In this document: in pieces, positions 3,559-33,403 of the stretch
Layout of the letters: every line of letters starts with the position of its first letter
Numbering within the stretch: position 1 is the stretch's first letter
From: Marinilabiliales bacterium
Lineage (GTDB): Bacteria > Bacteroidota > Bacteroidia > Bacteroidales > PUMT01
Assembly: GCA_007695015.1 (NCBI GenBank)
Contig: REEN01000063.1
Span: forward strand, 101,302 to 158,646
Reading direction: 5' to 3'
DNA length: 57,345 nucleotides
Notes under the pieces: model-generated
What the model was told of the DNA's origin: nothing
Database searches by the model: none
The model's input: the letters and a program-made list of their open reading frames with translations, nothing else
Program-made: the position numbers and the translations under genes

Positions 3559-5226
3559 CTATTCCTCCTCCATGTAGAGGAAACGCTTGATGCTTTTCTT
3601 CGGGGTTTTTTCAAACTCCTCCGGGTAAATCCGGACCTTCGAAAGGCTCATGTAGACCGGCATCTCCTTGTTGAGGTTTTTGCGATGGTTCTCCATGATC
3701 GCCTCCAGCTGCACTTCATCAACCCCGTCGGCTTTTGCCGTTTCGTAATCGGGATAAACAAGTCCGATCAGCTTACTTGTTTTTTTACTCTCTATAACCA
3801 CAGATTCGAGGATGTAATTCATATTGTTCAGCTTGGCCTCGATCTCCTCAGGGTAGATGTTCTGGCCCGAGGGTCCGAGCAGCATGCTCTTGCTGCGTCC
3901 CTTGATAAAGACGAAGTTCTCATTGTCAATGATGCCAAGGTCGCCGGTGCGCAACCATCCATCGTCGACGAGGACTGCATTGGTTGCCTCTTCATTCTTA
4001 TAATAGCCCAGCATGACATTCTCTCCGCGAACCATGATCTCACCCACTTCATTGTAGGGGTCGGCCGAGTCGATCTTAACCTCCATCCCGTCAACAACTT
4101 TTCCGGCTGAACCAAGCTTGGTCTCTTTCCATCCCGCATAGCTGATGAGCGGACCGCATTCGGTCATGCCATAGCCGATAGTGAATGGAAATCCTATTTT
4201 GTTGAAGAACAGTTCCACATCCTTGTTAAGCGCAGCACCTCCAATTACCACTTCGTGGAAATTGCCGCCGAACACATCGATCAGTTTGTTCCGGATCTTT
4301 TTGTATATAAGCTTATTTATGCCCGGGATCTTCAGCAGCACCTTCATTGCAGGTTTTTCAAGAGCGGGCAGAAGCTGTTTCTTATATATTTTTTCTATGA
4401 TAAGGGGCACTGCAAGAACAAGCCTTGGCTTAATCTCCTTGAATGCCCCGAGTATGATCTGGGGCGAAGGTGTCCTGGTGAGGAATGTGATGTGGCACCC
4501 CAGGGTGAAGGGGAAGAGGAACTCGAAAGCACATCCGTATGAATGGGCAAGCGGCAGGAACGACACAATGGCGTCGCCCGGCTGGAGAGGCATATTGTTG
4601 TGTGCGAACACTACATTGGATACAATGCTGTTGTGCGCAAGCATGACCCCCTTTGAAAAACCAGTTGTCCCGGAAGTATAGCTTATCACTGCCAGGTCGG
4701 AATTGGGCACCTCCTCAAGGCTGAAGTTTTCAGCCGTAAGTCCGCCAGGGTATTTTTCTTCATAAAGCTTGTCAATACCGGCCACTACATCTTTCAGTGC
4801 GCCATTACCCATATCCGACAGCAGAGAAAAATCGTTAACCGAAAAGATCCCGCGAAGGTTTTTCATCTCCTTTTCGCTGAGAGTTTCAAGGATATTGTCG
4901 GCAACGAACAACACAACCGAATCGGAGTGGTTGACGATATGGTGTACGTCATTTGGCTTGAAATCCGGTAAAACAGGCACAATTACCGCTCCATAGGATA
5001 TGGTCGCCAGGTAAACCATGGTCCAGTGTGCCGAATTCTTGCCGAGAAGTGCGATTTTATCGCCCCGCTTCACCCCGCCTTTCTCAAAGGCGATATGGAT
5101 ACGGGCGATCCTGTGGGCAACATCGGAATACTTGTAGCTTGCTCCCTTATAGTCGGAGAAGGCCGAAATGTCCCAGTTATTCCTGATACTGTCCTCAATG
5201 AACTGAACAAAGTTTTCTTTCATCAT
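3559..5226 (-). CDS. Long-chain fatty acid--CoA ligase (AMP-binding, FadD/ACSL type)
   Basis: ATP-dependent acyl-adenylate/thioester-forming enzyme of 555 residues that activates fatty acids to acyl-CoA for degradation or lipid synthesis. The P-loop-like adenylation motif is SYTSGTTGFSKGV, the A5 motif is GYGMTECGPLIS, the A8 region is GWLRTGDLG, and the C-terminal catalytic lysine region ends TPKKSIKRF. Length fits bacterial ACSL enzymes. The two in-frame ATG codons at 5226 and 5223 are equally possible starts. It is monocistronic: it has its own -33/-7 promoter (5254-5284) and a strong terminator (3440-3478). Chain-length preference cannot be read from the sequence. Confidence 0.9.
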   Translation of the reverse strand: MMKENFVQFIEDSIRNNWDISAFSDYKGASYKYSDVAHRIARIHIAFEKGGVKRGDKIALLGKNSAHWTMVYLATISYGAVIVPVLPDFKPNDVHHIVNHSDSVVLFVADNILETLSEKEMKNLRGIFSVNDFSLLSDMGNGALKDVVAGIDKLYEEKYPGGLTAENFSLEEVPNSDLAVISYTSGTTGFSKGVMLAHNSIVSNVVFAHNNMPLQPGDAIVSFLPLAHSYGCAFEFLFPFTLGCHITFLTRTPSPQIILGAFKEIKPRLVLAVPLIIEKIYKKQLLPALEKPAMKVLLKIPGINKLIYKKIRNKLIDVFGGNFHEVVIGGAALNKDVELFFNKIGFPFTIGYGMTECGPLISYAGWKETKLGSAGKVVDGMEVKIDSADPYNEVGEIMVRGENVMLGYYKNEEATNAVLVDDGWLRTGDLGIIDNENFVFIKGRSKSMLLGPSGQNIYPEEIEAKLNNMNYILESVVIESKKTSKLIGLVYPDYETAKADGVDEVQLEAIMENHRKNLNKEMPVYMSLSKVRIYPEEFEKTPKKSIKRFLYMEEE

Positions 5227-5551
5227 AGTTTTTGGGAAAGATTGGTTTGACCGTAAATTTAAATAAAGAATGAGAGAAATTCAACCCGGAGCAGAAAATA
5301 GTCGAAAAATAGATAGTAATATAAGCTGCGAAGGTTAACAGGTTACATTTTTGCAGATGAGCCATATTGCCTGTAACCGGTGATAATTAACATGTGCAGG
5401 GCACTGAAATTCTGACTTTGACATCCGTATAATCATTTGATTTTCCTGCCATTGTTTGAAAAAAAATACTTAAATTGCCGTTAAAAGATTTCAGGCAGAG
5501 CTCATGGCAATTATTATTATCTCTATTAAAAACCAACCATAATCATTGACA
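5227..5551. other. 325-bp divergent intergenic region without a gene
   Basis: AT-rich spacer between the leftward acyl-CoA synthetase gene and the rightward universal stress gene. It holds the leftward promoter at 5254-5284. On the rightward side there is a loose -7 candidate (TTAAATTGC near 5470-5478, preceded by TTTG at 5455-5458). A weak inverted pair GGTTAC/GTAACC flanks 5341-5385. No ORF, RNA gene or riboswitch fold was recognised. Confidence 0.5.
5254..5284 (-). promoter_or_regulatory. Bacteroidota-type promoter of the acyl-CoA synthetase gene
   Basis: On the minus strand TTG (282-284 within 5282-5284) is followed after 20 bp by TAAATTTA (5254-5261), close to the TTG/TAnnTTTG pattern of the Bacteroidota housekeeping sigma factor. 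It ends 28 bp before the start codon. Confidence 0.45.
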
Positions 5552-6409
5552 ATGAAGCAGATTATTGTACCACTTGATTTTTCTGATGAGTCAATCAACG
5601 GGCTTGAACTGGCCATTATGATATCATCAAAAACAAAAGCAGGCATCCAGCTTGTTTATGTAATTGGCAAAACTTCGGAGATCAGTGACATGTCAAAGGA
5701 TGAAGAGCAGCGTATAGCCAAGTCGAAGCTCCGGGAGATACAGGCCAAATATGAGCACAAGCTCCCTTCAGGGGTTGAGCTGAGCTATATTGTCAAAAAG
5801 GGCAAGGTGTATAAAGAGGTTGTCGAACAGGCAGATGCCTTTGAAAATTCCATAATTGCAGCATCAACCCAGGGAGCCTCCGGTTTTGAGGAACGCTTCA
5901 TCGGAAGCAACGCGTTCAGGATCATTACTGCGAGTGAAAAGCCGGTAATTACAATAAGGCACGGCGTGGTGCCCAAGACATTCAGGAAAATACTGCTGCC
6001 CATTGACTATACCCAGGATACCAGGCAGAAGGTTCCCTACACGGCAGAGGTAGCAAGAATTTTCGGGTCGAAGGTCCATGTGCTTGCCGTTTCCGGCGGA
6101 AGGGACCAGGAGCTGGTGCAGAGGGTCAAATCATGGGCCAACCAGGTTGTTGAATACCTTAACGACGGCGGTATTGAGACGGAGTTTTCCACACGTACCG
6201 GGGAAGATATAACTGATATAATCGTTGATTATGCCGGTTCAGAAAAGATTGACCTTATATCGATCATGACTGACCAGGCCTCTTCGATCGCAAATTTCAT
6301 AATCGGGAATAATGCCCAGCAGCTGCTTAACAGATCGCCCGTACCGGTTCTTTGTATAACCCCCAGGGATTTGGGTGTGAAGGGAGGCTTTGCCACCTCA
6401 GGAGGCTGA
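5552..6409 (+). CDS. Universal stress protein with two UspA domains
   Basis: Cytoplasmic protein of 285 residues made of two tandem UspA-like alpha/beta domains, roughly residues 1-140 and 145-280. Domain 1 begins KQIIVPLDFSDES and ends with the nucleotide-binding type motif TQGASGFEERFIGSNA; domain 2 begins RKILLPIDYTQDTR and ends RSPVPVLCITPR. Domain 2 has a degenerate glycine motif (IGNNAQQLL), so perhaps only domain 1 binds ATP. Two-domain Usps of this length are common in Bacteroidota, where they respond to stress or growth arrest, but the partner is unknown. The ATG at 5552 is preferred over the upstream in-frame TTG at 5546 because it starts exactly at the conserved first strand. It is monocistronic. 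Confidence 0.88.
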   Translation: MKQIIVPLDFSDESINGLELAIMISSKTKAGIQLVYVIGKTSEISDMSKDEEQRIAKSKLREIQAKYEHKLPSGVELSYIVKKGKVYKEVVEQADAFENSIIAASTQGASGFEERFIGSNAFRIITASEKPVITIRHGVVPKTFRKILLPIDYTQDTRQKVPYTAEVARIFGSKVHVLAVSGGRDQELVQRVKSWANQVVEYLNDGGIETEFSTRTGEDITDIIVDYAGSEKIDLISIMTDQASSIANFIIGNNAQQLLNRSPVPVLCITPRDLGVKGGFATSGG

Positions 6410-18739: not shown

Positions 18740-21700
18740 TCAGAATCGTTTGCCGATAATCAGCACATCGTCAAGCTGTTCGTAATCGTTACCCATCCAC
18801 TCAAGCAACGTTTTTTCCAGGACAACCTTCTGCTCTGTCAACGGCCTGGAGCTAATGTCGGTAAGAAGCCGTTTGAGGTTTTTGGACATGAACTTTTTTC
18901 CCCTGTCACCTCCAAACTGATCGGCAAAGCCGTCGGAGAAGATATATATGGTATCTCCCGGCTTTATCTCTATTTCATGATTGCTGTAATTCTGTTCTCC
19001 GGGCTCGTGACCTATAGCCAGTTTATCGGCCTTGTATTCTGCAAGTTCTCCATTCCTCACAAGGTAAAGAGAGTTATATGCTCCTGCATATTCGACGATA
19101 TTATTATCCTGGTTATAGACTATAAGCGACATATCCATCCCGTCCCTGACACCTTCGCTTACTTCCACATTCTGGTGAAGCGTATGGTATACCTCTTCAT
19201 TCAGTTTGTCGAGTATCTTACCGGGCTCTGTTATCTTCATTTCTTTCACAACTTTGTTCAGGCCGTTGTGACCGATAAGCGACATGAAGGCCCCCGGAAC
19301 GCCGTGACCGGTACAATCGACGGCAGCGATCATATCTGTGCCGTTACTCCTCAGCATCCAGTAGAAATCGCCGCTCACAATATCTTTGGGCCTGAATAAC
19401 ACAAAAATATCATCGATTATGTCTTCTGCCGGGAGTATGGCATCCTGTAGCCTTTTTGCATAGTTTATGCTGTCTGTAATGTCCTTGTTCTTCATTGCCA
19501 GGAGGATATTCTTTTCTGATATCTCCCTGGTCCTTTCCTCCACCTTCTCTTCAAGTACCCGTTTTTCCCTGATCAGGTTCCTCTCCCTGATTTTAATGTA
19601 GAGTACTATTGTGATAATGCCTGCAATAATAAACGAGGTAATCCCCCACCAGCTTGCATACCACGGGGGCCTTATCCTGAAGCTGAAGCTTGCCGGTTCA
19701 GTGTTCCATATATCCTGGCTGTTGGTTGCCATCACCCTGAAGGTGTATCGTCCCGGAGACAGTCCCGGATATATGGCACTTGTCTCACGGGTCACCGGGC
19801 GCCAATCCGGGTCAGCTCCTTCGAGCATCACCCTGAATCTCACTGCACCGGGATTGGTGAGGCTAATGCTGTTATAATCGAAGATCAGTGAATTTTCCCG
19901 GTAACTCAGCTGAAGTCCCTCCTGAAGGTCCCTGTCAACATAGTTGACCCTGAGGCGGGTGAAATGGGTGTGTGATTCTGCCAGTTCAACGGGCGATAAT
20001 TCCGGCTCATATACCATTGCACCCATTACAGTCCCGAACCACAACCTGCCTCTGTTATCCCTGTAAGCAGCATTTCTTACCGCTTCAATACCCGTGAAGC
20101 CGTTATGCCTTGTATAGGTAAAAATCCTGTCCTTTTTAAGGTTGTACCTGTTGAGTCCCCTGCTGGTACCAATATAGATATTTTCATCATCAGATATTAT
20201 CAGACTGATGTAATTACCAAGGAGACCATCGGCCACTTCAAGCCTCTTTATTATGCCACTGCCGTCAGTAACAATTACGCCGTGTGATTCTGTCCCTATC
20301 CATATATTCCCGGCGGTATCCTCGGTCATGCACAGGGGTGTGAACTGTTCGTCAAGTTCAACAGGTGACGCAGTCATATTTTCGTCGATGATGGCAATTC
20401 CCCTTCCTGCCGAACCAACCCAGAGCCTGCCCTGTGTATCGTAAAACAGGGATGAAATGTCATTACCGGCTATACCGGAGCCCTGGGTGAATATTCCGTT
20501 ATCACCGGTATCTATGTTATACCAGGCTACAAAGGAGTTGGTCCCGAGCCACAGGTTGTTATTGTCGTCAATCTCCATCGCGGTGGGACTTACCGAACCC
20601 CTGGGAAGCAGGTCGCCAAGTATGAAATCTGTTGTATAATCCCTGAACCTGCCCGTAGAGGTGTTGTACATGCCCACACCGGCAACATCAGTGCTTATCC
20701 AGATATTGCCGTTCTGATCTCCCCTGATGAGCCTGACCCTTTCGAGCGAAAAGTGATCAAAAGAGGTAAAGCTCGAAAATGCCTCATTGTCGGGCAGAGA
20801 AGGGTCAAACAGGGTGATCCCGCCCTGGGTCCCTATCCAGAACCGCTGAGACCTGTCCTGGTAAACGGCCCATACCTGATTATCTACCAGTCCGTCTGCC
20901 ATCTGGTATGAAACCAGATGTTCTCCCTTATATATGGCAATACCGTTCTCATTGGTCCCGATCAGCACATTCCCTTCCTTGTCGCCGGCAAATGCCCTGA
21001 TCATATTATCGGTCATCCCGTTATCAACATCGTAAACAGTTATTTGCTGATCCCTGATCCTGGTTATTCCTCCTCCCCAGGTGCCGATCCAGATGGCGCC
21101 CTCATCGTCTTCGAAGATACAGCTTATCCAGTTGTGGGATAATCCGTCACGGGCATCGTATATGGTCAGTTCGCCATCTGTGGTGTTATATTTGTAAAGG
21201 CCTCCGTTGTATGTCCCGAACCACATATTGTTGCGGCTATCCTCGAACATACAGGTGATCTGGAAATAGCGAGGCAGCCATTCGGGCCTGAAAGGGGTAA
21301 AGATATTTTCCTGACGGTTGTATGTGCTGATACCCATGTCAGTAATAAAATAAAGGGTTCCGTCCCTGCCTTTGTGGGATTCAAAGATGCGGGGACTGAT
21401 GGTGCCGCCGCTGTAGTGCTCCCAGGTAAAATCGTCAGGGTTATCATACGGATTAATGATTTTCATTGTACCGTTACCCACAGTGGTTATCCATATCTCT
21501 CCCGCTTCTGTTTCAATGATTGAGCTTATATGGGTGCTTAATTCGTTCCCGCTGAACGGAGGAATGTGGAAGTTCTCGCCGTCGAAAAGGGATACCTGGC
21601 CGTCGTGATGCCCTGACCAAATACGCCCCTCCCTGTCCTCGAGCAGCACCCGGATAGCTCCCGGTGCCAGTCCGTCTCCGGCTGAAAAGTTTATGAAGAC

Positions 21701-21937
21701 ATGCCCGTCAAATGATGACAACCCGGCATCCGTACCCATCCATATATAGCCCTTACGGTCCTGCAGCAGATCATATACCTTCGACTGTGCCAGTCCGTCA
21801 GCCACACCATAGCTGTCAAAAAAATATGTCTGCGACAATGCGGGGCGGACTGCCGTGATGCAGATAAAAACAAGAAAGACCAGCAGGCCTGAGGGCTTGC
21901 TGGTCTTTTTCGGGCGACTTTTGTCAGGGTTTCGCAT
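18740..21937 (-). CDS. Reg_prop propeller sensor with C-terminal SpoIIE/PP2C phosphatase
   Basis: Membrane signalling protein of 1065 residues. A signal/anchor (GLLVFLVFICITAVRPALSQ) is followed by two seven-bladed-type propellers built from two-component-regulator repeats (~40-680), with recurring DREGRIWSGHHDG, DDEGAIWIGTWGGG and NNNLWLGTN units. A Y_Y_Y domain follows (~690-755, ending SPGRYTFRVMATNS). A transmembrane helix lies near 765 (SFIIAGIITIVLYIKI), then a short coiled coil, then a PP2C/SpoIIE domain (~830-1063) with IVSGDFYWMLRSNG, AAVDCTGHGVPGAFMS, YIFSDGFADQFGG and QLDDVLIIGKRF, retaining the metal-binding aspartates. A periplasmic signal would control dephosphorylation of a cytoplasmic target, perhaps an anti-anti-sigma factor, but no such gene is nearby. 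It is 121 bp downstream of a caspase-like gene on the same strand. Confidence 0.9.
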   Translation of the reverse strand: MRNPDKSRPKKTSKPSGLLVFLVFICITAVRPALSQTYFFDSYGVADGLAQSKVYDLLQDRKGYIWMGTDAGLSSFDGHVFINFSAGDGLAPGAIRVLLEDREGRIWSGHHDGQVSLFDGENFHIPPFSGNELSTHISSIIETEAGEIWITTVGNGTMKIINPYDNPDDFTWEHYSGGTISPRIFESHKGRDGTLYFITDMGISTYNRQENIFTPFRPEWLPRYFQITCMFEDSRNNMWFGTYNGGLYKYNTTDGELTIYDARDGLSHNWISCIFEDDEGAIWIGTWGGGITRIRDQQITVYDVDNGMTDNMIRAFAGDKEGNVLIGTNENGIAIYKGEHLVSYQMADGLVDNQVWAVYQDRSQRFWIGTQGGITLFDPSLPDNEAFSSFTSFDHFSLERVRLIRGDQNGNIWISTDVAGVGMYNTSTGRFRDYTTDFILGDLLPRGSVSPTAMEIDDNNNLWLGTNSFVAWYNIDTGDNGIFTQGSGIAGNDISSLFYDTQGRLWVGSAGRGIAIIDENMTASPVELDEQFTPLCMTEDTAGNIWIGTESHGVIVTDGSGIIKRLEVADGLLGNYISLIISDDENIYIGTSRGLNRYNLKKDRIFTYTRHNGFTGIEAVRNAAYRDNRGRLWFGTVMGAMVYEPELSPVELAESHTHFTRLRVNYVDRDLQEGLQLSYRENSLIFDYNSISLTNPGAVRFRVMLEGADPDWRPVTRETSAIYPGLSPGRYTFRVMATNSQDIWNTEPASFSFRIRPPWYASWWGITSFIIAGIITIVLYIKIRERNLIREKRVLEEKVEERTREISEKNILLAMKNKDITDSINYAKRLQDAILPAEDIIDDIFVLFRPKDIVSGDFYWMLRSNGTDMIAAVDCTGHGVPGAFMSLIGHNGLNKVVKEMKITEPGKILDKLNEEVYHTLHQNVEVSEGVRDGMDMSLIVYNQDNNIVEYAGAYNSLYLVRNGELAEYKADKLAIGHEPGEQNYSNHEIEIKPGDTIYIFSDGFADQFGGDRGKKFMSKNLKRLLTDISSRPLTEQKVVLEKTLLEWMGNDYEQLDDVLIIGKRF
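21874..21909 (-). promoter_or_regulatory. Very stable hairpin inside the 5' coding end of the SpoIIE-type gene
   Basis: Bases 21874-21889 pair with 21894-21909: a 16-bp stem with wobbles only at the base and one position inside, and a 4-nt loop. Core arms are AGACCAGCAGGCC and GGCTTGCTGGTCT. T-rich sequence flanks it on both strands, giving a terminator-like shape 28-64 nt inside the coding region. It may act as an attenuator or limit translation. Confidence 0.55.
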
Positions 21938-22017
21938 AATGGTTTTTATTGCTGCAGGCTGCCTCCATCCTTATTGCAGGCAACTTGTGGTTAAACTGAC
22001 GTTAAGATACCTGCCTG

Positions 22018-22032
22018 TATACTGGCAGTATA
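22018..22032. repeat. 15-bp palindrome between the caspase-like and SpoIIE-type genes
   Basis: TATACTG-G-CAGTATA, perfect arms of 7 bp around one base, 27 bp past the caspase stop and about 80 bp before the start of the phosphatase gene. Candidate operator for the downstream gene; unproven. Confidence 0.35.
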
Positions 22033-22058
22033 ATTGCAGAATACCGGAAGTGACATGG

Positions 22059-22844
22059 CTACTGTTCCCGCGCCACGAAGAAGAAGGTGCCGCCTTCATC
22101 CTCAAGTCCGGCGATCTTTCCAAACCTGGGCCTGGCCTGGTTATTGCGCGATGCAGCTATCGTTACCTGGGTAACGATGTTCTCTATCGGCAGGCAGGGA
22201 TTGGCATTATTTGCCAGGGCGCTTGCAAATGTATTTGTAAAGGCCGAATTCTCGGTAGCGAATTCGTAACCTGAGGAGGTAAGCACCTGTGATGACCTTG
22301 CCGGCCCGGACATCAACTCACTGCAGCTCCGGTTAGTGGGTATTGAACGCATAGCCTGGTAAAATGTGGGGCCCGATTCACAGGCATCAGTCACTACCAG
22401 GGTGTTCGTTACCGATTCGGAGTATTCTCTGAGCGACTGCCTGAGCGAATTCATGTTATAGTAGGTGAACTCATCGTCGAGTGTGGCATCCACAGGTATC
22501 CAGTAACCAATGTTGTTAATGAATTTACCGTGACCGGCATACCATACCATGATAGCGTTCACCTCATTCTCTACCACAAGGTTACGGAACTCTTTTGCGA
22601 AAAAATCTTCCATCTCCTGTTTTGTCATGTTCTTGACATGAATGATCCTGTCAATCAGATAACCCTGGAGAGAGCTCTTCATAAGCTCAATGTCGGTTGT
22701 GGGGCCGGTAAGGCTGGCAAAAGATTCGTAATCGGTGTTTTCAATGAAGACCACCCATGTTTTTCCCATGGGATTGAATTCCTCCTGTGCAAAGAGCGCC
22801 GGAGAAAGACAGAGCAGGATTAATAACAATCTTAGCTTCTTCAT
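22059..22844 (-). CDS. Small secreted caspase-like (C14) protein
   Basis: Protein of 261 residues with a Sec signal peptide (LRLLLILLCLSPALFAQEE) and one caspase/metacaspase-type domain. The fold markers are WVVFIENTDYESF (strand 1), IMVWYAGHGKF with the catalytic His (~residue 103), and LVVTDACESGP with the catalytic Cys (~154). VLTSSGYEFATE and FTNTFASALANN fit the following helix. Caspase-like enzymes cleave after Arg/Lys (metacaspases, gingipains) or Asp; the specificity here is unknown. No prodomain or adaptor domain is present. It would work in the periplasm or outside the cell. It probably shares a transcript with the SpoIIE-type gene. A second, much larger caspase protein is encoded 7 kb away (29732-32122). 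Confidence 0.8.
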   Translation of the reverse strand: MKKLRLLLILLCLSPALFAQEEFNPMGKTWVVFIENTDYESFASLTGPTTDIELMKSSLQGYLIDRIIHVKNMTKQEMEDFFAKEFRNLVVENEVNAIMVWYAGHGKFINNIGYWIPVDATLDDEFTYYNMNSLRQSLREYSESVTNTLVVTDACESGPTFYQAMRSIPTNRSCSELMSGPARSSQVLTSSGYEFATENSAFTNTFASALANNANPCLPIENIVTQVTIAASRNNQARPRFGKIAGLEDEGGTFFFVAREQ

Positions 22845-25116: not shown

Positions 25117-25602
25117 ATGAGTACGAAGAAGGTCATCAACCATTCAGAGGCACTTGACAAGATACGAAAATTTTGTGCTGCCGAGGAGAAATGCCGGTAT
25201 GATGTGAGAAAGAAACTTTTTGACTGGGGAGTTAGCTCAGGTGATACAGAAAAGATAATCAACTCGCTGGTGGAAGATAAATTTGTCGATGAGTGGAGGT
25301 TTGCAAGACTGTTTGCAGGCAGTAAGTTCCGCAATAACAAATGGGGCAGGATCAAGATATCCTATGAGCTTACCAGGAAAAACATTGCCCGGAACATTAT
25401 TGAGGATGCTCTGATAAGGATAGATGAGACAGAATACCTTGACATGCTCACAAAAGAACTCAGGAAAAAACAGAGATCGGTTTCGGCCGGTGATGAATGG
25501 ACTCTCAGGGCCAAGCTTCACCGTTACGCAAGCAGCAAAGGCTATGAAAATGAGATCATCAACAAGGTGCTTGATGATATGATAACAACTACCGAAGCCT
25601 AG
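25117..25602 (+). CDS. recX: RecX regulatory protein
   Basis: Small helical protein of 161 residues that inhibits RecA filament extension and ATPase. The family's three-helix repeats are visible: CRYDVRKKLFDWGVSSGDTE, INSLVEDKFVDEWRFARLF, and KWGRIKISYELTRKNIARNI. The length is typical for RecX. No recA is adjacent, which is usual for Bacteroidota. It lies 71 bp after prmC and is likely co-transcribed; it converges on the minus-strand caspase operon. Confidence 0.9.
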   Translation: MSTKKVINHSEALDKIRKFCAAEEKCRYDVRKKLFDWGVSSGDTEKIINSLVEDKFVDEWRFARLFAGSKFRNNKWGRIKISYELTRKNIARNIIEDALIRIDETEYLDMLTKELRKKQRSVSAGDEWTLRAKLHRYASSKGYENEIINKVLDDMITTTEA

Positions 25603-25650: not shown

Positions 25651-27861
25651 TTATCTATTACTGAAAACCATCTCTCCTTCCGTCGATAGAATAAGATATT
25701 GCAGATTTCCACTTCTATGCGGAGGTTCGCCCGGATATCCCATAAGGTTGATGATATTGCTTGAAATGGCGAATACACGGTCAACATAAAAACTGCTACT
25801 GGCAATAACAGGAGTAGTTTGCAGGAGTCTCCCGTCAAATGATACGTCGGCGATCATCAGGCCCCAGTCGGTTCCATTGTTGCCGGTTGTCAGTAATTCA
25901 TTAAGATAGACAACATATTTGTCTTCTGCCCTGACCATCCCGGCAAAATTGCCTTTAACATTCAACTTTGTTTCCCATGAAACTTTACCTGTTGAATCTG
26001 CCTGGCAAACCGATATTTCAGAAAAGAAGGTGTCATCATCTTTTGCTTTTTTGCCCATCACTATATGACAGAGCTGGTTTATCTCATCATAGGCAAGGTA
26101 TAGAGGGTAGCCGTTATTTTCAATTTTCTCCTGATAGATAATATTGCCGTTATTGTCGATGTGGACCAGTGTGTTAATGTAACTAACAGTACCCGGCGCA
26201 ATGAAGTCACTATCATTCCCGGTTTTTGCTGAAGAAAGAATGATTACCCCGTTTTCGTATGCAAACACCTTTTTTGCCGTGTTGTCAAGGATAGTTACAT
26301 TCCTGTTTGTAGTTCCGACTTCTTTTATCCATTCAATTTTCTGTTCTTCTGATATTTTTGCAACAAACGGAACGTTTGTCCCGGACTTTCTTGCATAACC
26401 CGCTGCAAATGCCGGAATTCCATGCAAATAGGCAACATCTTCGGTAAAGTAGACGGAATTTTCGTCGGGCAGTCCGGCAGGAAACGGACTGAGCGGTATC
26501 AGCACTCCGTCACGTCCTTCTGCAGGGGGAAAAGATCTTCTCGCCATTTCTTCATTTCTGAAATAGGCATTAAGATTTCCCAGGCCATTATTAAACCAGG
26601 ATTTAAGGAAAAGTTGCTGATTGTTGTAATGCTCCCGCAGTCCGCTCACACCATTGTAATAATCGTCAAAGAAATCCCTGAAACGCCCGGCTCTCTCAGG
26701 TGTTATTGCACTATTGAACTGGTCAAGTTCTTCAAGGGTTTCATTCAACTGCAAGGCAAGCCTGTAGTAATACCGAAGTTTGCGGGCCATTAACAGCATG
26801 CTGCTGTCATTTGGGTTATTGATAGTGTTCCTGGAAAGTTGCAAAAATGATTGTCGTTTGTCATTGTAATTAAAAAGTTCTCTTATCAGTGAGTTATTGT
26901 CAAATCGCCCGAGCCTGAACAGGAATAATTCATCGAACGAATCAAGGGCGGTTTCCTGGTCAATATGGGGTGCCTGGGTGAGGTAACTGTAATTGTAGAT
27001 GAACTTTTTTTCTATCTCTTCAATCTCCTGCCTCAGCGCAAGAATATCGTTCTGATATATATTCCTGAATTCTTTGACCCATGCACCATAATCCCATATG
27101 TTAAATTCATCCATAAGGAAGTCACTGTTGGTGATCCCGTCAAGCCTGAAGGTATTTATTGGTCTTGTTCTGTACTCCTGGTTATAGTCCGTTAAGGGGA
27201 ACTCATCAATCAGCGCTTTGTACCTGTCAAACGCCTTTATTGTATTTGCATACTCCTGTTCAAGTTCATCGAGATGTGAAAGAAGAAACATGTCAGTTCT
27301 CAGCAGGGCCTCATTATAACTGTCATAACTGTTATTGATTTCGTTAAAGAGCCTTACACAGTTATTATAGTGGTTTTTTGAGCTTTCCAGCGCCTCAAAG
27401 ATCGTGGTTAGTTTTTCTTTAAAGAATTTATTGTGTTCAAGTCGGTGTGCAACATATTCAAGTACATCCTCATTGGTAAGCCTTGAATCTGATGCAGTAA
27501 CCGGGATGTTTGAATATAGCTCCCTGTTTCGTCTAACCTCATTGCTTTCGAGGAAGACAGGGAAGAGTCCGTAATATACAATCGCATTGTTTATATAATG
27601 CTGAACAAGCCTGTATTGTCTTAATGGGTCAAGCTCCTCAATGATTTTTTCACAAAGATGTCCCAGCTGAATATAGGTGTTGGCAAAAGCCGGATTTTGA
27701 TGCTGGTATTCAAATAGCCTGTAATAGGCCTGCTCATTGGTAAGGTTGTCCAGGTTGCTTATAATATCTTCAAAAGATTGCTGCTGCCCGCTTGTTATAA
27801 AAAGCAGTCCTGTTAAAAGTATCAGCAAACATGAAACGCATATTCTTCTAATCATGTTCAT
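25651..27861 (-). CDS. Secreted helical protein with C-terminal propeller-like region, third gene of the caspase operon
   Basis: Protein of 736 residues that I do not recognise. A signal peptide (IRRICVSCLLILLTGLLFITSGQQ) suggests export. Residues ~25-460 are predominantly helical with many Tyr/Asn/Glu and long amphipathic stretches (ALLRTDMFLLSHLDELEQEY, LRYYYRLALQLNETLEEL) that look TPR- or tether-like. Residues ~470-736 are beta-rich with a repeating pattern such as HIDNNGNIIYQEKIENNG and LILSTEGEMVFSNR, suggesting a beta-propeller. No catalytic motif was seen. ATG 27861 (MNMIRR) overlaps the stop codon of the WD40-OmpA gene (27848-27850), a sign of translational coupling; the upstream TTG/ATG extensions are less likely. 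The role is inferred only from the operon. Confidence 0.7.
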   Translation of the reverse strand: MNMIRRICVSCLLILLTGLLFITSGQQQSFEDIISNLDNLTNEQAYYRLFEYQHQNPAFANTYIQLGHLCEKIIEELDPLRQYRLVQHYINNAIVYYGLFPVFLESNEVRRNRELYSNIPVTASDSRLTNEDVLEYVAHRLEHNKFFKEKLTTIFEALESSKNHYNNCVRLFNEINNSYDSYNEALLRTDMFLLSHLDELEQEYANTIKAFDRYKALIDEFPLTDYNQEYRTRPINTFRLDGITNSDFLMDEFNIWDYGAWVKEFRNIYQNDILALRQEIEEIEKKFIYNYSYLTQAPHIDQETALDSFDELFLFRLGRFDNNSLIRELFNYNDKRQSFLQLSRNTINNPNDSSMLLMARKLRYYYRLALQLNETLEELDQFNSAITPERAGRFRDFFDDYYNGVSGLREHYNNQQLFLKSWFNNGLGNLNAYFRNEEMARRSFPPAEGRDGVLIPLSPFPAGLPDENSVYFTEDVAYLHGIPAFAAGYARKSGTNVPFVAKISEEQKIEWIKEVGTTNRNVTILDNTAKKVFAYENGVIILSSAKTGNDSDFIAPGTVSYINTLVHIDNNGNIIYQEKIENNGYPLYLAYDEINQLCHIVMGKKAKDDDTFFSEISVCQADSTGKVSWETKLNVKGNFAGMVRAEDKYVVYLNELLTTGNNGTDWGLMIADVSFDGRLLQTTPVIASSSFYVDRVFAISSNIINLMGYPGEPPHRSGNLQYLILSTEGEMVFSNR

Positions 27862-29698
27862 CGGTAATATCTTGGTTATTGTCACTGGCAATTTCAATTA
27901 TTTTGAACTCTACCCGTCTGTTCATGGCCCTGTTATCTTCCGATGTGTTGGGCATCAAGGGTCTGTTGGAGCCGTATCCCCTTGATACAAGCCTGTTTTC
28001 AGCGATATCGTTATCCAGCAGATAGTTTACGACTGACCGGGATCTTCTGCCTGAAAGAAGCATATTGTAGGCATCAGTGCCAATGTCGCAGGTATGGGCG
28101 GATATTTCAATCGTTATCCGCGGATTGTCAAGGAGCAGTCCGACAACCCGGTCAAGCTCAATGAATGATTCACTAGTCAGATCGGCCGAATTCGTGGCGA
28201 ATGTAATATTGTTCAATACGATTGCCACCTCTTCACGCAGGGGGGCCAGTTCAACCCCGATATCGGCCCCCTCAACATCAGGTATGCTGATTACCTCATT
28301 GTGGAACAGGTAACCCTCGGCCCCGCTTATGGAAATTTCATATTGATCGCTTTCCCTCAGCCATACAGAAACCGTCCTTGACCGATATCTGCTCAATAGC
28401 TCTTCCAGCATATCTGCCCTGTACTCTATATTCAGAATATCTGAGCTGATCATACCTTCACTGTAGAACAGGTCGATCCTGACCTGATTATTACCCTCAT
28501 TGAGAAACACCACACTTTCATTTACAATTGGTTTATCAGGGGTCAGATCAAGGTTTGCTTTTGTAATATGAGTTTCATTGTTAACGTAGAGGTTCATTCT
28601 CTCAACCGGATATCCTGACGAGATACTGTATATGACAGGGTATCCCGTGCTGATACTTTCAAGATTGTTTTCGGTAATCCATCTTATCTCAGGTTTGTGC
28701 AGCGGCCCGGATGGGCTGTCAGCTATTTTTGAGGGGGCCGGACCAATGCCGAGTCCGGAAATGTCCCATATTTTCAGGGTATCACAAAACCGGGATGCAG
28801 CAAAAAGCTCTTTTCCGTCCGGTCTTATGTTGACAGATGTTACCGGTTGAGCCTGCAGGCCTGAGTGGAAGGCAATACCGCCTGAATTGATATCTGAGAC
28901 AACCAGGTATCTGTCTTCTCCTCCACTGATGATATACCTGCCGTCGGGACTGAAACAGAGATCGCCGACATTACCGGTGTGTACAAGTATGGCGTTTTCA
29001 AGGGTGAGATTGTAGGTATTCCATATGCTTATCCGGCTATTGTTGCCTGAACTTGCAATAAAATTGCCACTGGGACTGAATCGCAGTGTATTTATTGGAC
29101 CATTCTTTTTAATATCAGAGCTTATCAGGCTGCCTGTCGCAAGGTCCCAAACAAATATTTCTCCCATGCTGGTTCCTGCAGCCACCTTCTGTCCGCCCGG
29201 ATGAAAATCCACTTTCGTTATTTTGCCATCAGGTTCGTCAAAAACATGGATATTATTTCCTGTTGCGAAATCCCATATCCTTACTGTTCTATCACCGCTG
29301 CCCGATGCAATAAACCTGTCATCGAAGCTTACAGCAACAGAGGTGACCGCGTCAGTATGACCGGGCAGGCTCCTTAAGATCTCACCTGGAACTGCATCCC
29401 AGACAGAAATCATGTTGTTCATGCTTCCTGCAACCAGGTATTGGCCTGTGGATGAGAAACTGACCGACAGTGGCTGGTGAGGCAGGCCTGTTATTTCGTT
29501 CAGAATATGCCCTGTTCCGGCCTCTTTGATGATAACTCTCATATCTGCACCGGCAGTGGCCAGGTATTTGCCATTGGGGCTGTAGTGTGAGGAGACCACA
29601 TAGTGGTTGTGTTCAACCACAATTTGTTCAGTGACCTTCTGCCCGGAAAGGGGGCTATTGCAGGCCAGTATAAGCAATATGCCAAATAAGCGCCTCAT
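27848..29698 (-). CDS. Secreted WD40 propeller fused to OmpA peptidoglycan-binding domain, second gene of the caspase operon
   Basis: Protein of 616 residues. A signal peptide (MRRLFGILLILACNSPLSGQ, possibly a lipobox at Cys 13) is followed by a seven-unit WD40 propeller (~30-315) with clear GH/WD units: PGHTDAVTSVAVSFDDRFIA, SGSGDRTVRIWDFATG, SPSGNFIASSG and SPDGRYIISGGEDRYLVVSD. A beta-rich linker (~330-490) leads to an OmpA domain (~505-606): ITFATNSADLTSES, ITIEISAHTCDIG, YNMLLSGRRSRSVVNYLL, RLVSRGYGSNRP and DNRAMNRRVEFKI. It would anchor a protein-binding propeller to the cell wall. It starts 33 bp after the caspase gene and overlaps the third gene. WD40 with OmpA recalls the T9SS subunit PorE, though PorE has a PD40 propeller and a TPR region. 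Confidence 0.85.
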   Translation of the reverse strand: MRRLFGILLILACNSPLSGQKVTEQIVVEHNHYVVSSHYSPNGKYLATAGADMRVIIKEAGTGHILNEITGLPHQPLSVSFSSTGQYLVAGSMNNMISVWDAVPGEILRSLPGHTDAVTSVAVSFDDRFIASGSGDRTVRIWDFATGNNIHVFDEPDGKITKVDFHPGGQKVAAGTSMGEIFVWDLATGSLISSDIKKNGPINTLRFSPSGNFIASSGNNSRISIWNTYNLTLENAILVHTGNVGDLCFSPDGRYIISGGEDRYLVVSDINSGGIAFHSGLQAQPVTSVNIRPDGKELFAASRFCDTLKIWDISGLGIGPAPSKIADSPSGPLHKPEIRWITENNLESISTGYPVIYSISSGYPVERMNLYVNNETHITKANLDLTPDKPIVNESVVFLNEGNNQVRIDLFYSEGMISSDILNIEYRADMLEELLSRYRSRTVSVWLRESDQYEISISGAEGYLFHNEVISIPDVEGADIGVELAPLREEVAIVLNNITFATNSADLTSESFIELDRVVGLLLDNPRITIEISAHTCDIGTDAYNMLLSGRRSRSVVNYLLDNDIAENRLVSRGYGSNRPLMPNTSEDNRAMNRRVEFKIIEIASDNNQDITDEHD

Positions 29699-29731
29699 TA
29701 TATTTTCTTTATGTTGTTAACACCTGTTTAA

Positions 29732-32122
29732 TTAATTAAATATCCACTCATGCCACGCCTCTTCTATCGTGGGACTGACATTTGTCTGCGGTGTTTGTTC
29801 GGCATTGTTAACCATGATAGATCTTATGGCAACCGTTTGTCTCAAATAATCCGAAAACTCCCTGTAGGTTATATTACCCTTGGTCTCCTTAATTTTATTC
29901 AGAGCGAAGTAGGTAAAAATTCCGTGTTGCTTTTCCCTGAATGGATGAGCTATCTGGGCTTCACTGCTGGCAGAGAAAACCACCAGGTTCCCGCTCAGCA
30001 TGTCTTCTCTTGGGCGCACTCTTACCGCCCTTGCCGAAACAAGTCCCACATTCCGTGCACCTCCGCTGAAGCATGCATCAAGAAAAACCGTTACCCTGTT
30101 TGCCGGATATTTGGTGAGCTGGCCATAAAGGTCACTCAGTTTAACTGCAAAATCCAGGTTTGAGCCTGTAACATCTACAGGAATGATATAGGGATCCCTG
30201 GTATTATGATCGGGTAGGCCATGTCCTGCATAATAGAAAAAGACCTCCGCATTGCCGTCGAGAGCGTTTATTATGCCTGCCAGTTTTCTTATCTCAAGTT
30301 GCATCTCTATGCTTCGTGCGTTGGTAAGGAAAAGGATGTTCTCTTCGGGCACACCAAATACATTAATGGCATATTTCCTGAACAGCTCGGCGTCCCTTAT
30401 TGCGTAATCGACATTTGCCTCCCTCTGCAGTCCTACCTGGTAGGAGCTGTAATCTTCGTTCCCTATTATTAGAGCAAACCGGAGAGGATTAGAAGGGTTA
30501 CGGAATGGGATGAAGCTGATGTCATCCTGTCGCGGACTTGCCTGTGCTACCGCTCCGGCTGCATCATCAGGCACCGGCTGTGAGAATGTGTTGACCGATA
30601 TTACCTCTTCCCTGTTCAGGTTCTTAAAGGTAACCTGTGCATTTACCGGCAGACTTGTTTCATTATCGGTTATTGCAACCTCGAACATTCTCTTTCTTGG
30701 TTCCAGGGCGATATCTCTTTCGAACCTGGAGAAAATTATATCTCCGAAAAGGTCAAAATCAAAACTGTCACTTTCAAATCCGCCGGTCGCTGCGTTAATC
30801 CGGTAATTGTTACCTACAGGTAAGCGGAGGGTGAATGACCCCGGCTCATGGGCGATCGCCTCAATCATTTTGTTCTCGTTAAGATTCAACGCATGAACAT
30901 CTGCATCAAGAGGCCTGAATATTTCACTGTCGTAAACAGAAATATCCAGCTCAACCTCGTTAAACAACTCAATGAGTGGTGGTCCGGTAATCTTTTCCTC
31001 CTGTCTGTAGTCAATCTGGAAGCTGGCGAATGAAAACCCCGGGTTCCTTATGTCAATTATATAATTTGCCTCATCGAGCAGTTTGAGATGATACATCCCT
31101 GTCTGACTGCTACTGAAAAATTCACCCAGCCGGTTCAGTGTTATAGGGTCATATACCACAAGCGGTGTGTTTAATGGCTGTTTGCTTTCAAGGTGCTCTA
31201 TCCTGCCGGTTGCCGCTATTGTTTTAAGGGGGCTGAACTGTTCAGGCAGCCCTGACCTGTATATAGTGCCTGTAATATCCCTTCTTGTTTCGGTTCGGAT
31301 CAGGAAATAGATGTTGTTGCCGGCAATCCTGGGATAAATATTGGTTGCTTCAGATCCTATATTTTCGATCAGCATTGGTATCGTCCATGCACCCAGGATC
31401 TGTCTGACATAATATATGTTATACCCGTCTCTGTGATTATCCTGGTCGACAGAGGAGAAATATATGGATCTTGTATCAGGGGCAATGTATAAACCATATT
31501 GGCAGTCCTGGTTGATGATGTCATGCAGAGGTTCCGGCTCACCCCATTCTCCCAATTCATTTTTTGTCAGAGAATAGAAGATCTCACAATCCGGGGTCCT
31601 TGGTGGTTTTCGTATATCAGCATCAGGATTGCTGCGTGAGAAATAGAAGGTCAGCATTCCCGGTGGCATGGCAGGATGTAATTCATCTAGCGGACTGTTA
31701 ACCCGGGTACACATCGGAACAGGTTCGCTCCAGCTATTGTTTTCCCGAACCGAATAATAGATATCATAACCCCCTTCACCACCGGGGAAATTCGCATGGT
31801 AGTATAAAATGCTTTCGTCAAAATAGAGGAATGGTCCTCCGATATCGGAGTTACCGTCGCCAAAACTGTTTATTGCATTGAGGGGGGTGGGATAACTCCA
31901 TGCACTTCCGTCAAAACGGCTTTCAAACAGTTGCCCTCTGTTGTTCAGCCTCATTGCGACCACCATATAATCTTCGGTGGAACTGATATCGAAACCTGTC
32001 ACATTATTCCATTCTGAAACCCTTACCGGTTTTTCGGCCTGGCCTGAAGCAACGGCAAGGTTCAGTGCCAGGACAGATATCAGTATTGTTTTGAGTGAAT
32101 TCAAAATAGGGCTCATCTGCAT
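29732..32122 (-). CDS. Secreted PD40/CRD protein with C-terminal caspase domain, first gene of the caspase operon
   Basis: Protein of 796 residues (start ATG 32122 or 32116). Signal peptide: LKTILISVLALNLAVASGQA. Residues ~35-300 are PD40-type propeller units (DIGGPFLYFDESILYYH, LHPAMPPGMLTFYFSRSN, LYIAPDTRSIYFSSVDQDN). Residues ~305-520 hold about three carboxypeptidase-regulatory-like units (GRIEHLESKQPLNTPLVVYD, FEVAITDNETSLPVNAQVTF). Residues ~545-796 are a C14 caspase domain: FALIIGNEDYSSY, FFYYAGHGLPD with catalytic His (~633) and VTVFLDACFSGG with catalytic Cys (~683), then SGNLVVFSASSEAQIA and GIFTYFALNKI. Both dyad residues are kept, so it is probably an active protease outside the cytoplasm. 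It leads the operon and is preceded by its own promoter (32164-32197). The substrate and trigger are unknown. Confidence 0.88.
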   Translation of the reverse strand: MQMSPILNSLKTILISVLALNLAVASGQAEKPVRVSEWNNVTGFDISSTEDYMVVAMRLNNRGQLFESRFDGSAWSYPTPLNAINSFGDGNSDIGGPFLYFDESILYYHANFPGGEGGYDIYYSVRENNSWSEPVPMCTRVNSPLDELHPAMPPGMLTFYFSRSNPDADIRKPPRTPDCEIFYSLTKNELGEWGEPEPLHDIINQDCQYGLYIAPDTRSIYFSSVDQDNHRDGYNIYYVRQILGAWTIPMLIENIGSEATNIYPRIAGNNIYFLIRTETRRDITGTIYRSGLPEQFSPLKTIAATGRIEHLESKQPLNTPLVVYDPITLNRLGEFFSSSQTGMYHLKLLDEANYIIDIRNPGFSFASFQIDYRQEEKITGPPLIELFNEVELDISVYDSEIFRPLDADVHALNLNENKMIEAIAHEPGSFTLRLPVGNNYRINAATGGFESDSFDFDLFGDIIFSRFERDIALEPRKRMFEVAITDNETSLPVNAQVTFKNLNREEVISVNTFSQPVPDDAAGAVAQASPRQDDISFIPFRNPSNPLRFALIIGNEDYSSYQVGLQREANVDYAIRDAELFRKYAINVFGVPEENILFLTNARSIEMQLEIRKLAGIINALDGNAEVFFYYAGHGLPDHNTRDPYIIPVDVTGSNLDFAVKLSDLYGQLTKYPANRVTVFLDACFSGGARNVGLVSARAVRVRPREDMLSGNLVVFSASSEAQIAHPFREKQHGIFTYFALNKIKETKGNITYREFSDYLRQTVAIRSIMVNNAEQTPQTNVSPTIEEAWHEWIFN

Positions 32123-32296: not shown

Positions 32297-32313
32297 CATT
32301 AAAACCATTCGAT

Positions 32314-33403
32314 ATGATTACGGCAGATAACCTTAAAGATCTTGTAAGGCGGAGTGATGCGCTGAGGAGGCATCTTTGACATAGACAAAAAGATATTACA
32401 GATTGAAGAACAGGAAGAGAAGACGCAGGATCCCGATTTCTGGAATGACCCGAAAGAGGCTGAGAAGCAACTGAAGGCTATATCTTCTTTGAAGAGCTGG
32501 ACCGGTGGTTATGAAAAGGTTCGGAATGCAGTCGAAGAGCTGGAGATCCTGTACGATTACTACCACGAAGACGAGGCTGATGAGAATGAGGTAGATCAGC
32601 AATACAAAAAGGCACAGAAGCTTATTGAAGACCTGGAGTTCAGGAATATGCTAAGCCTGGAAGAGGATGTGCTCGGCGCCATACTTAAGATAAATGCCGG
32701 TGCCGGCGGTACCGAAAGCCTTGACTGGGCAGAGATGCTGATGCGTATGTACCTGAGGTGGGGAGAGAAGAACGGGTACCAGGTGAGGCAGCTTGATTTC
32801 CAGGACGGGGAGGAGGCGGGTATCAAGACCGTCACTTTTGAGTTTACCGGCGATTTTGCATACGGCTACCTGAAGAGCGAATCGGGTGTTCACCGGCTGG
32901 TGAGGCTGTCGCCTTTCGATGCCAACCACAAAAGGCATACATCATTCGCTTCGGTCTTTGTATCGCCTCTCGTTGATGAAAGCATAGACATAGTTGTTAA
33001 CCCGTCGGATATTACCTGGGAAACCTACCGGGCGAGCGGTGCAGGCGGCCAGAATGTGAACAAGGTCGAGACCGCGGTAAGGCTCAGGCACCTTCCATCA
33101 GGGCTCGTGGTTGAGAACCAGGAGGACCGCTCACAGTTGAAGAACAAGGAGAATGCGATGAAGATACTCAGGTCGCAGCTTTATGAGATGGAACTCGAGA
33201 AGCGCCGGCAGGCGCAGGCCGAGATAGAGAGCGGCAAGAAGAAGATAGAGTGGGGCTCGCAGATCAGGAACTATGTGCTTCACCCGTACAAGCTCGTGAA
33301 AGATGTAAGGACCGGTTACGAGACATCGAACGTTCAGGATGTGCTTGACGGTGAGCTGGATGACTTCATCAAGGCTTATTTGATGGAGTTCGGGTCGCAG
33401 TAA
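32314..33403 (+). CDS. prfB: Peptide chain release factor 2, with programmed +1 frameshift
   Basis: RF2 terminates translation at UGA and UAA. The gene is split: codons 1-21 (ATG 32314 to CTT 32374) end at an in-frame TGA (32377-32379). A +1 shift there joins GAC (32378) and continues to the stop at 33403, giving ~362 residues, normal for RF2. The downstream part has the stop-codon-reading SPF tripeptide (LVRLSPFDANHKRH) and the catalytic GGQ loop (SGAGGQNVNKVETA). The N-terminal helix pair continues smoothly across the shift (DALRRHL then DIDKKILQIEEQEE). The shift makes synthesis self-limiting: when RF2 is scarce the ribosome pauses at UGA and slips. The GGQ glutamine is the target of PrmC, encoded at 24185. 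Confidence 0.97.
32365..32380 (+). promoter_or_regulatory. RF2 programmed frameshift site
   Basis: AGGAGG (32365-32370), a Shine-Dalgarno-like stimulator, then CAT, then the slippery CTT-TGA-C (32374-32380). Spacing and sequence match the classic prfB element of E. coli (AGGGGG-TAT-CTT-TGA-C). Confidence 0.95.

Follow-up and report, generated by a model that had tools for sequence, protein, structure and literature searches.

In passages of a 2012 survey of metacaspase operons, OmpA is listed for 14 of 217 operons and WD40 is named as the commonest accompanying domain (PMC3501461), so neighbourhoods of caspase and OmpA as such are not new. For Craspase, part of the published description reports that a bound partner switches on the caspase-like TPR-CHAT protease, which gives partner-gated protease activity a precedent (PMC9729208). 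On an exported caspase carried by a scaffold of the kind considered here, text searches of open-access full text turned up nothing beyond PMC3501461. We analysed a stretch of 57,345 nucleotides from a Marinilabiliales bacterium (GCA_007695015.1, contig REEN01000063.1, positions 101,302 to 158,646; hereafter the window). At 25651-32122 of the window, one minus-strand unit encodes a PD40-CRD-caspase protein (gene 1, P0001), a WD40-OmpA protein (gene 2, P0002) and a third protein, G3 (gene 3, P0003), tightly packed and each with an export-like start. An earlier note had read it as a conserved, cell-wall-anchored three-gene caspase system. Judged by alignment with relatives, the locus is instead a rearranged form of a conserved gene pair, a PD40-CRD-OmpA scaffold and G3, present as one inserted block.

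Results

Origin of Genes 1 and 2

One scaffold open reading frame (ORF) aligns, in consecutive parts, with residues 1-510 of gene 1 and with gene 2 from residue ~441 on. In the same way, one ORF for a protein with WD40, immunoglobulin-like (Ig) and caspase domains aligns with residues ~25-430 of gene 2 and then ~530-796 of gene 1. These alignments make it very probable that the two genes are chimeric in origin, being the halves of one ancestral scaffold gene exchanged with the halves of a WD40-Ig-caspase gene, in permuted order. The nearest donor-type gene (G152:C12; L103, 751 aa) belongs to Bacteroidales bacterium UBA2287 (G152) and is 64% identical over the caspase and 35% over WD40-Ig; it ranks first for the caspase among 393 genomes and, self excluded, first for WD40 among 247. 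Besides this gene UBA2287 carries an unsplit scaffold and G3, so a single genome holds both types of parental gene. Its unsplit pair is 43% (scaffold N part), 54% (OmpA part) and 40% (G3) identical to the window.

A tree built from 31 caspase rows, 29 of them different, places the window caspase with the UBA2287 gene and with L022, a caspase of the window's own genome, at a support of 94/94 for the three. A single donor for the WD40-Ig and caspase halves is likely from these matches, and is unproven because the caspase half also groups weakly with L022. As a candidate donor L022 was set aside: it is 60% identical to the window caspase but lacks a WD40 match, and the tree only weakly resolves L022 from the UBA2287 gene. 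No match to the WD40 part was found among the other own-genome caspases checked (L022-L024 and P0004). The L022 caspase (4052-5740, C104) itself starts in an export-like way, and behind it come several short frames with exported-looking starts.

Gene 1 was also searched against 393 genomes of the order, own genome included, with the strongest matches listed, and against 385 genomes of the class, with matches at E ≤ 1e-60; two candidates per genome were scored. Among the matches listed, the only one to span PD40 and caspase was the window's own. The others each align with a single part, ending at ~510-525 on the scaffold side or starting at 457-550 on the caspase side, and those caspase-part matches that start before residue 530 reach the half-CRD and linker, never PD40.

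Insertion between recX and prfB

A sibling genome (G004, L136), whose prfB is 94% identical, has an empty site at this position. Its flanks match the window as far as 25587 and resume at 32302; 13 bases separate these points in the sibling versus 6,714 in the window. The outer borders of the block match the empty site at 92-93% identity, and the last recX codons differ between the two genomes. Because the sibling has this empty site, the three genes are taken as one inserted block; they are the only long coding frames assigned to it. The block has a G+C content of 44.0%, and the flanking 5-kb stretches have 47.3% and 53.3%. A promoter and terminator scan of the locus gave signals no better than those of shuffled sequence.

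In 15 genomes of the same genus or family (12 and 3, respectively) there was no match to G3 and, at E 0.001, none to the caspase part of gene 1; the matches to gene 1 listed in them all lie within residues 31-458, at ≤47% identity. A prfB match was present in 14 of the 15, and recX and prfB were neighbours, at most 436 bases apart, in all nine sibling loci fetched of these 14. We infer that the block was acquired by horizontal transfer. At the empty site (L136 10109-10150), GATATGATAACA occurs twice and flanks the 13 bases replaced by the insert; the window positions are 25575-25587 and 32310-32325.

Conserved Scaffold-G3 Pair

Of 99 genomes searched, 16 had a match to G3, counting the own genome and one weak match (G064, 1.6e-4). 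A profile search matched 60 of the 393 order genomes, 37 of them strongly (E below 1e-40, own genome included), and at 1e-20 the class sample gave five of 385: the own genome, one member of the order and three outside it, these last in the N part only. Outside the window we examined 38 G3 loci, namely L108 and 37 others, which come from 36 genomes; G064 was omitted here and from the CHAT-neighbour statistics below, and was counted in a 17-genome sum. Scaffold, SpoIIE, CHAT and C14 labels at these loci come from local profiles of 3-9 sequences each, part of which Pfam confirmed.

A single-ORF scaffold with N-terminal PD40-CRD and C-terminal OmpA lies directly upstream of G3 in 34 of the 38 loci. 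Three of the other four (G334, G268, G400) end at a contig border on that side, leaving G071 as a true exception. None of the 34 scaffold genes gave a caspase match. By this comparison the conserved unit is the pair of scaffold and G3, not a caspase trio. The window keeps G3 directly downstream of PD40-CRD...OmpA sequence but not the single-ORF scaffold, which is two genes here versus one in 34 of 34 relatives. A scan of named genomes gave four loci, all with an intact scaffold: UBA2287, ADurb.Bin008, USDE_maxbin.088_sub and Breznakibacter xylanolyticus DSM 6779.

At E 0.01, neither Pfam nor NCBIfam nor PADLOC assigned the third protein to a family, and the window G3 is 37-42% identical to its four nearest relatives. 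An AlphaFold2 model from five sequences (mean predicted local distance difference test, pLDDT, 63) covers a construct of 736 residues, helical towards the N terminus and a beta-propeller from residue ~470 onwards, in agreement with the helical/propeller character named in the earlier note. Among the 50 rows listed, Foldseek gave propeller proteins and unrelated folds with template modelling (TM) scores <0.4. Because the model quality is modest and the TM-scores are low, we draw no function for G3 from it.

Split in the Third CRD

The scaffold gene is split inside its third CRD (CRD3). In a model of the intact UBA2287 scaffold, built from four sequences, strand 510-514 lies just before the split and strand 523-529 just after it, with the split in their loop, so that CRD3 strands 1-3 stay on gene 1 and strands 4-7 on gene 2. 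Block means of pLDDT are 76-89 at residues 501-540 and 63-90 across CRD3. The donor gene is cut in the linker between Ig and caspase. When the 34 scaffolds are aligned, the two CRD3 halves of the window abut and no strand is lost. Conserved positions are retained at 4/5 in the N half (CRD3N) and 10/14 in the C half (CRD3C), and at 11/15 and 21/29 in the intact CRD1 and CRD2. CRD3N is 41-49% identical to four scaffolds of relatives (hosts), versus 32-62% for UBA2287 with three of them. The CRD3 halves are thus recognisable and mostly kept, and some relaxation is possible.

Gene Products and Domains

The coordinates are collected in Table 1. The tight coupling claimed by the earlier note was confirmed, with 33 bases separating genes 1 and 2 and a 14-base overlap between genes 2 and 3 when gene 3 is counted from its ATG. 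The ATG at 27861 (residue 13) is the likelier start; from the TTG, gene 3 would span 25651-27897 (-) and encode 748 aa. Export signals had likewise been assigned to all three products, and their N termini do look export-like, as judged by eye.

Table 1. Features of the inserted block in window coordinates
Feature	Position	Strand	Basis or remark
Insert of 6,714 bp separating recX from prfB: three genes and gene 1 leader; also replaces final recX codons	25588-32301	.	
Gene 1 (P0001), PD40-CRD1-CRD2-half CRD3 + caspase, 796 aa, export-like start	29732-32122	-	Pfam, alignment
Scaffold N part of gene 1, ~residues 1-512, stopping inside CRD3 past the third strand	30587-32122	-	Alignment, model; 43% identity to UBA2287 scaffold gene
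Caspase domain (C14) of gene 1, residues 548-782	29777-30481	-	Pfam; 64% identity to caspase of UBA2287 WD40-Ig-caspase gene
His634 codon, gene 1	30221-30223	-	Predicted catalytic dyad
Cys684 codon, gene 1	30071-30073	-	Predicted catalytic dyad
Gene 2 (P0002), WD40-Ig + half CRD3 + OmpA, 616 aa, export-like start	27848-29698	-	Pfam, alignment
Donor N part of gene 2: signal, WD40 propeller (~25-318), Ig-like domain (~330-425, named by eye)	28385-29698	-	Best non-self relative: UBA2287 gene, 35%
Scaffold C part of gene 2: CRD3 strands 4-7 + OmpA (Pfam 499-594)	27848-28378	-	Alignment
Cys537 codon, OmpA of gene 2	28088-28090	-	Occupies the peptidoglycan-binding Asp position of relatives
Gene 3 (P0003, G3), scaffold partner conserved in relatives: export-like start, N-terminal helices, beta-propeller at the C terminus	25651-27861	-	

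Pfam Peptidase_C14 matches gene 1 with E 5.5e-16 and 59.4 bits (cut-off 21.4). His634 and Cys684, the latter given as Cys~683 in the earlier note, align with His and Cys in all 28 distinct best-matching caspases, and so the intact dyad described there was borne out, together with the C14 fold. Parts of a published account of the orthocaspase/metacaspase type of C14 give cleavage after Arg or Lys (PMC6426788). Pfam did not report PD40 on gene 1 and placed CRD under its cut-off (18.2 versus 32.3 bits); both names were taken from a relative, L027, in which both pass Pfam, and from partial matches to the NCBIfam PorE and CHU_0125 models. For genes 1 and 3, sequence searches against solved structures yielded no informative match.

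The own genome has at least five C14 genes: a Pfam search listed four and missed P0004 (Pfam 5.7e-15), for which reason C14 counts are lower bounds. P0004 is a small second caspase with an export-like start and His105/Cys155, encoded directly upstream of a Reg_prop-Y_Y_Y-SpoIIE receptor, P0005. Together (18740-22844, -) the two make up a caspase-receptor pair of their own, at a distance of 2.7 kb from the insert; this pair recurs in two of nine sibling loci (G004, 97/93%; G001, 84/70%) and in G056 (L104, 52% and 34%).

Within gene 2, the OmpA domain keeps 52 of 63 conserved positions in the alignment of the 34 scaffolds. According to the sections consulted of a study of PorE, the OmpA domain of that protein grips peptidoglycan via Asp576, Asn584 and Arg591, and the Asp and Arg of OmpA_C domains, in PorE Asp576 and Arg591, hold diaminopimelate (PMC7192894). 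The window has Cys in place of the peptidoglycan-binding Asp, and cell-wall anchoring, the weakest part of the earlier note, is therefore doubtful on this substitution. The gene 2 product could be a lipoprotein, given its LILAC motif.

Neighbours of the Pair

In 18 of the 38 loci, G3 has a gene matching the Reg_prop-Y_Y_Y-SpoIIE profile no more than 400 bases away; 15 of these genes are downstream on the same strand, two are convergent and one is upstream, and Pfam confirmed the label for all three of them submitted. In UBA2287 (L101 6634-7812, Pfam) and ADurb.Bin008 (L102 3252-4496, similar sequence start) a sigma-54 response regulator gene stands downstream of G3, with two CHAT genes in a row on the other side.

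TPR-CHAT genes with an export-like start adjoin the pair in five of the 38 loci, in two families. In family f19 (G033 and G242) the gene is immediately upstream on the same strand, with frames that abut or, in G033, overlap by 8 bases stop to stop; in family f25 (G152 and G387) and at L108 it is divergent from the pair. All five encode H-ATHG and SACET motifs, which we take to be catalytic. With the five cases counted as two independent lineages, and within distance windows picked post hoc, a CHAT border within 1.5 kb of the pair is expected 0.07 times over the 36 genomes (P for two or more, 0.002). We regard these neighbours as a modest hint of a protease-scaffold link. A three-gene run of TPR-CHAT, PD40-CRD-OmpA and G3 with a convergent SpoIIE-type gene occurs in two genera of one family (L039 2418-14181; L158 2551-14452), and in two loci of one genus (G070, G268) a C14 gene lies ~5 kb from the pair.

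Discussion

The order scaffold-N, donor-C, donor-N, scaffold-C, G3 is that which a single crossover of a circular or tandem donor would give, and the simplest single event would be a Campbell-like crossover in which a WD40-Ig-caspase gene, circular or tandemly repeated, entered the scaffold gene. Both chimeric products would then be exported to the periplasm, where the CRD3 halves may pair in trans by fragment complementation and rebuild the scaffold with G3. Such re-pairing would put the caspase beside the WD40 sensor with which it formerly shared a chain. The protease would then consist of two chains, and its activity would be governed by assembly and by propeller ligands. We give this overall explanation, a chimeric inserted pair whose halves re-pair into an assembly-dependent protease, a probability of about 0.5. 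That the products actually work as a re-paired, gated periplasmic protease we would put at less than even odds. A role in envelope sensing with a proteolytic output is likely by analogy, because other members of the pair adjoin a Reg_prop-SpoIIE receptor or a TPR-CHAT protease. In its most far-reaching form, the proposal is of a natural split-protein protease switch made by one crossover, which cut a beta-sandwich domain, the CRD, in two; the chains must re-pair via this CRD, and caspase and WD40 sensor act jointly only once the scaffold is assembled. The scaffold-G3 pair would more generally be a dock at which proteases of the caspase fold can be exchanged, CHAT in two families and C14 in the window, and would report to the Reg_prop-SpoIIE phosphatase receptor. 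This form is tentative, and we think it rather unlikely as a whole.

The two genes could instead have become two separate working proteins, the caspase tethered to a scaffold half and WD40-OmpA acting independently, with the half-CRDs unpaired. Both junctions adjoin linker-like donor sequence, and the Ig-like domain of gene 2 as well as PD40, CRD1 and CRD2 of gene 1 align full-length with their parents, so whole domains were kept. The half-CRDs, however, retain their strands and most conserved residues, and free half-sandwich domains are usually unstable; we consider two independent proteins a doubtful outcome. The reading of the earlier note would explain the gene order, the export-like starts and the dyad, and the conservation of the three genes was checked in genomes of the order and the class. 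No second caspase version was found at the 34 scaffold genes or among the matches listed from the 393 order and 385 class genomes, and the OmpA Asp is replaced by Cys, which together leave a conserved, wall-anchored trio very improbable. Of its proposed protease-on-scaffold platform the general idea is plausible, as CHAT genes adjoin the pair in two families, while the wall anchoring is doubtful. Least credible of all is an artefact of assembly that joined unrelated pieces: the genome is a draft of 118 contigs, yet both joins are in frame, each parent is cut once, the locus lies inside a 158.6-kb contig and the outer borders fit the empty site of the sibling.

Several observations weigh against re-pairing into a gated protease, and some of them would suit a dead or decaying rearrangement, in which the scaffold was broken by the insertion and its remains were kept by chance. 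The chimera was found in one draft genome only, and the peptidoglycan-binding Asp, present in 34 of 34 scaffold relatives, is lost, with the Arg kept. PD40 retains 30 of 51 conserved positions, which is low among relatives (just two of 34 hosts are lower), and four of 34 hosts are lower than the window in CRD3C. The CRD3C segment, junction included, is 38-45% identical to four hosts, less than the hosts are to one another (43-78% for UBA2287 with three of them), which points to CRD3C changing faster in the window. The overall mean pLDDT of the UBA2287 scaffold model is 55, and the window caspase is weakly grouped with L022 (86/58). For CHAT, 33 of 38 loci lack such a neighbour, the link spans two families only, and within 6 kb of the pair 0.39 cases are expected (P for two or more, 0.059). 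Decay is nevertheless improbable in the face of three long intact ORFs, the intact His/Cys dyad, an OmpA domain with 52 of 63 conserved positions and a G3 that is 37-42% identical to its relatives. Re-pairing into an assembly-dependent protease thus remains the explanation that we prefer.

The locus offers a concrete case of a bacterial caspase wired into an envelope scaffold through domain exchange; one relative (UBA2287) has both parental gene types, and a sibling has the site without the insert. The analysis further reveals the conserved scaffold-G3 pair, with its SpoIIE signalling neighbours and, in two families, its CHAT protease neighbours. The role of exported bacterial caspases becomes testable in cultured B. 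xylanolyticus DSM 6779, which bears the intact pair.

Metacaspase-NACHT-WD40 proteins are held to be cytoplasmic. The earlier note had likened the locus to these apoptosome-like proteins and had suggested a role in defence. No nucleoside triphosphatase (NTPase; NACHT/NB-ARC) match was seen with Pfam in the three window proteins (for gene 2, among the best 25 of 44 rows), and the likeness was not upheld. Nor did defence find backing: when five window proteins were scanned with PADLOC for known anti-phage systems, the hits were limited to one generic 'caspase' model (33.7 bits) and to matches of the OmpA/MotB (ZorB) and repeat types. The window unit and the metacaspase-NACHT-WD40 proteins both tie a WD40 propeller to a C14 protease, as far as the survey passages go (PMC3501461), but the window unit has no NACHT/NB-ARC seen and its starts are export-like.

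The type IX secretion scaffold PorE (NF052230) and CHU_0125 (NF053607) are likewise beta-propeller and OmpA-like scaffolds, with a CRD in PorE, in the portions of the reports used (PMC7192894, PMC5891637), and partial hidden Markov model matches to both fall on both window halves. Membership in these families was rejected at 48.2 and 97.8 bits versus 600 for PorE and 47.9 and 110.8 versus 620 for CHU_0125. Unlike them, the window has no TPR reported, is spread over two genes, carries a caspase and has lost the Asp. Craspase resembles the proposed arrangement in having a caspase-like protease under partner control, and TPR-CHAT genes adjoin the same scaffold pair, whereas the protease family is CHAT there versus C14 in the window and Craspase is RNA-guided. 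In domain content the unit is also like the WD40-Ig-caspase (C14) proteins of the order, such as that of UBA2287, which share the WD40, Ig-like and caspase domains and the export-like start; there they form one chain, whereas the window version is cut at the Ig-caspase linker and spread over two genes.

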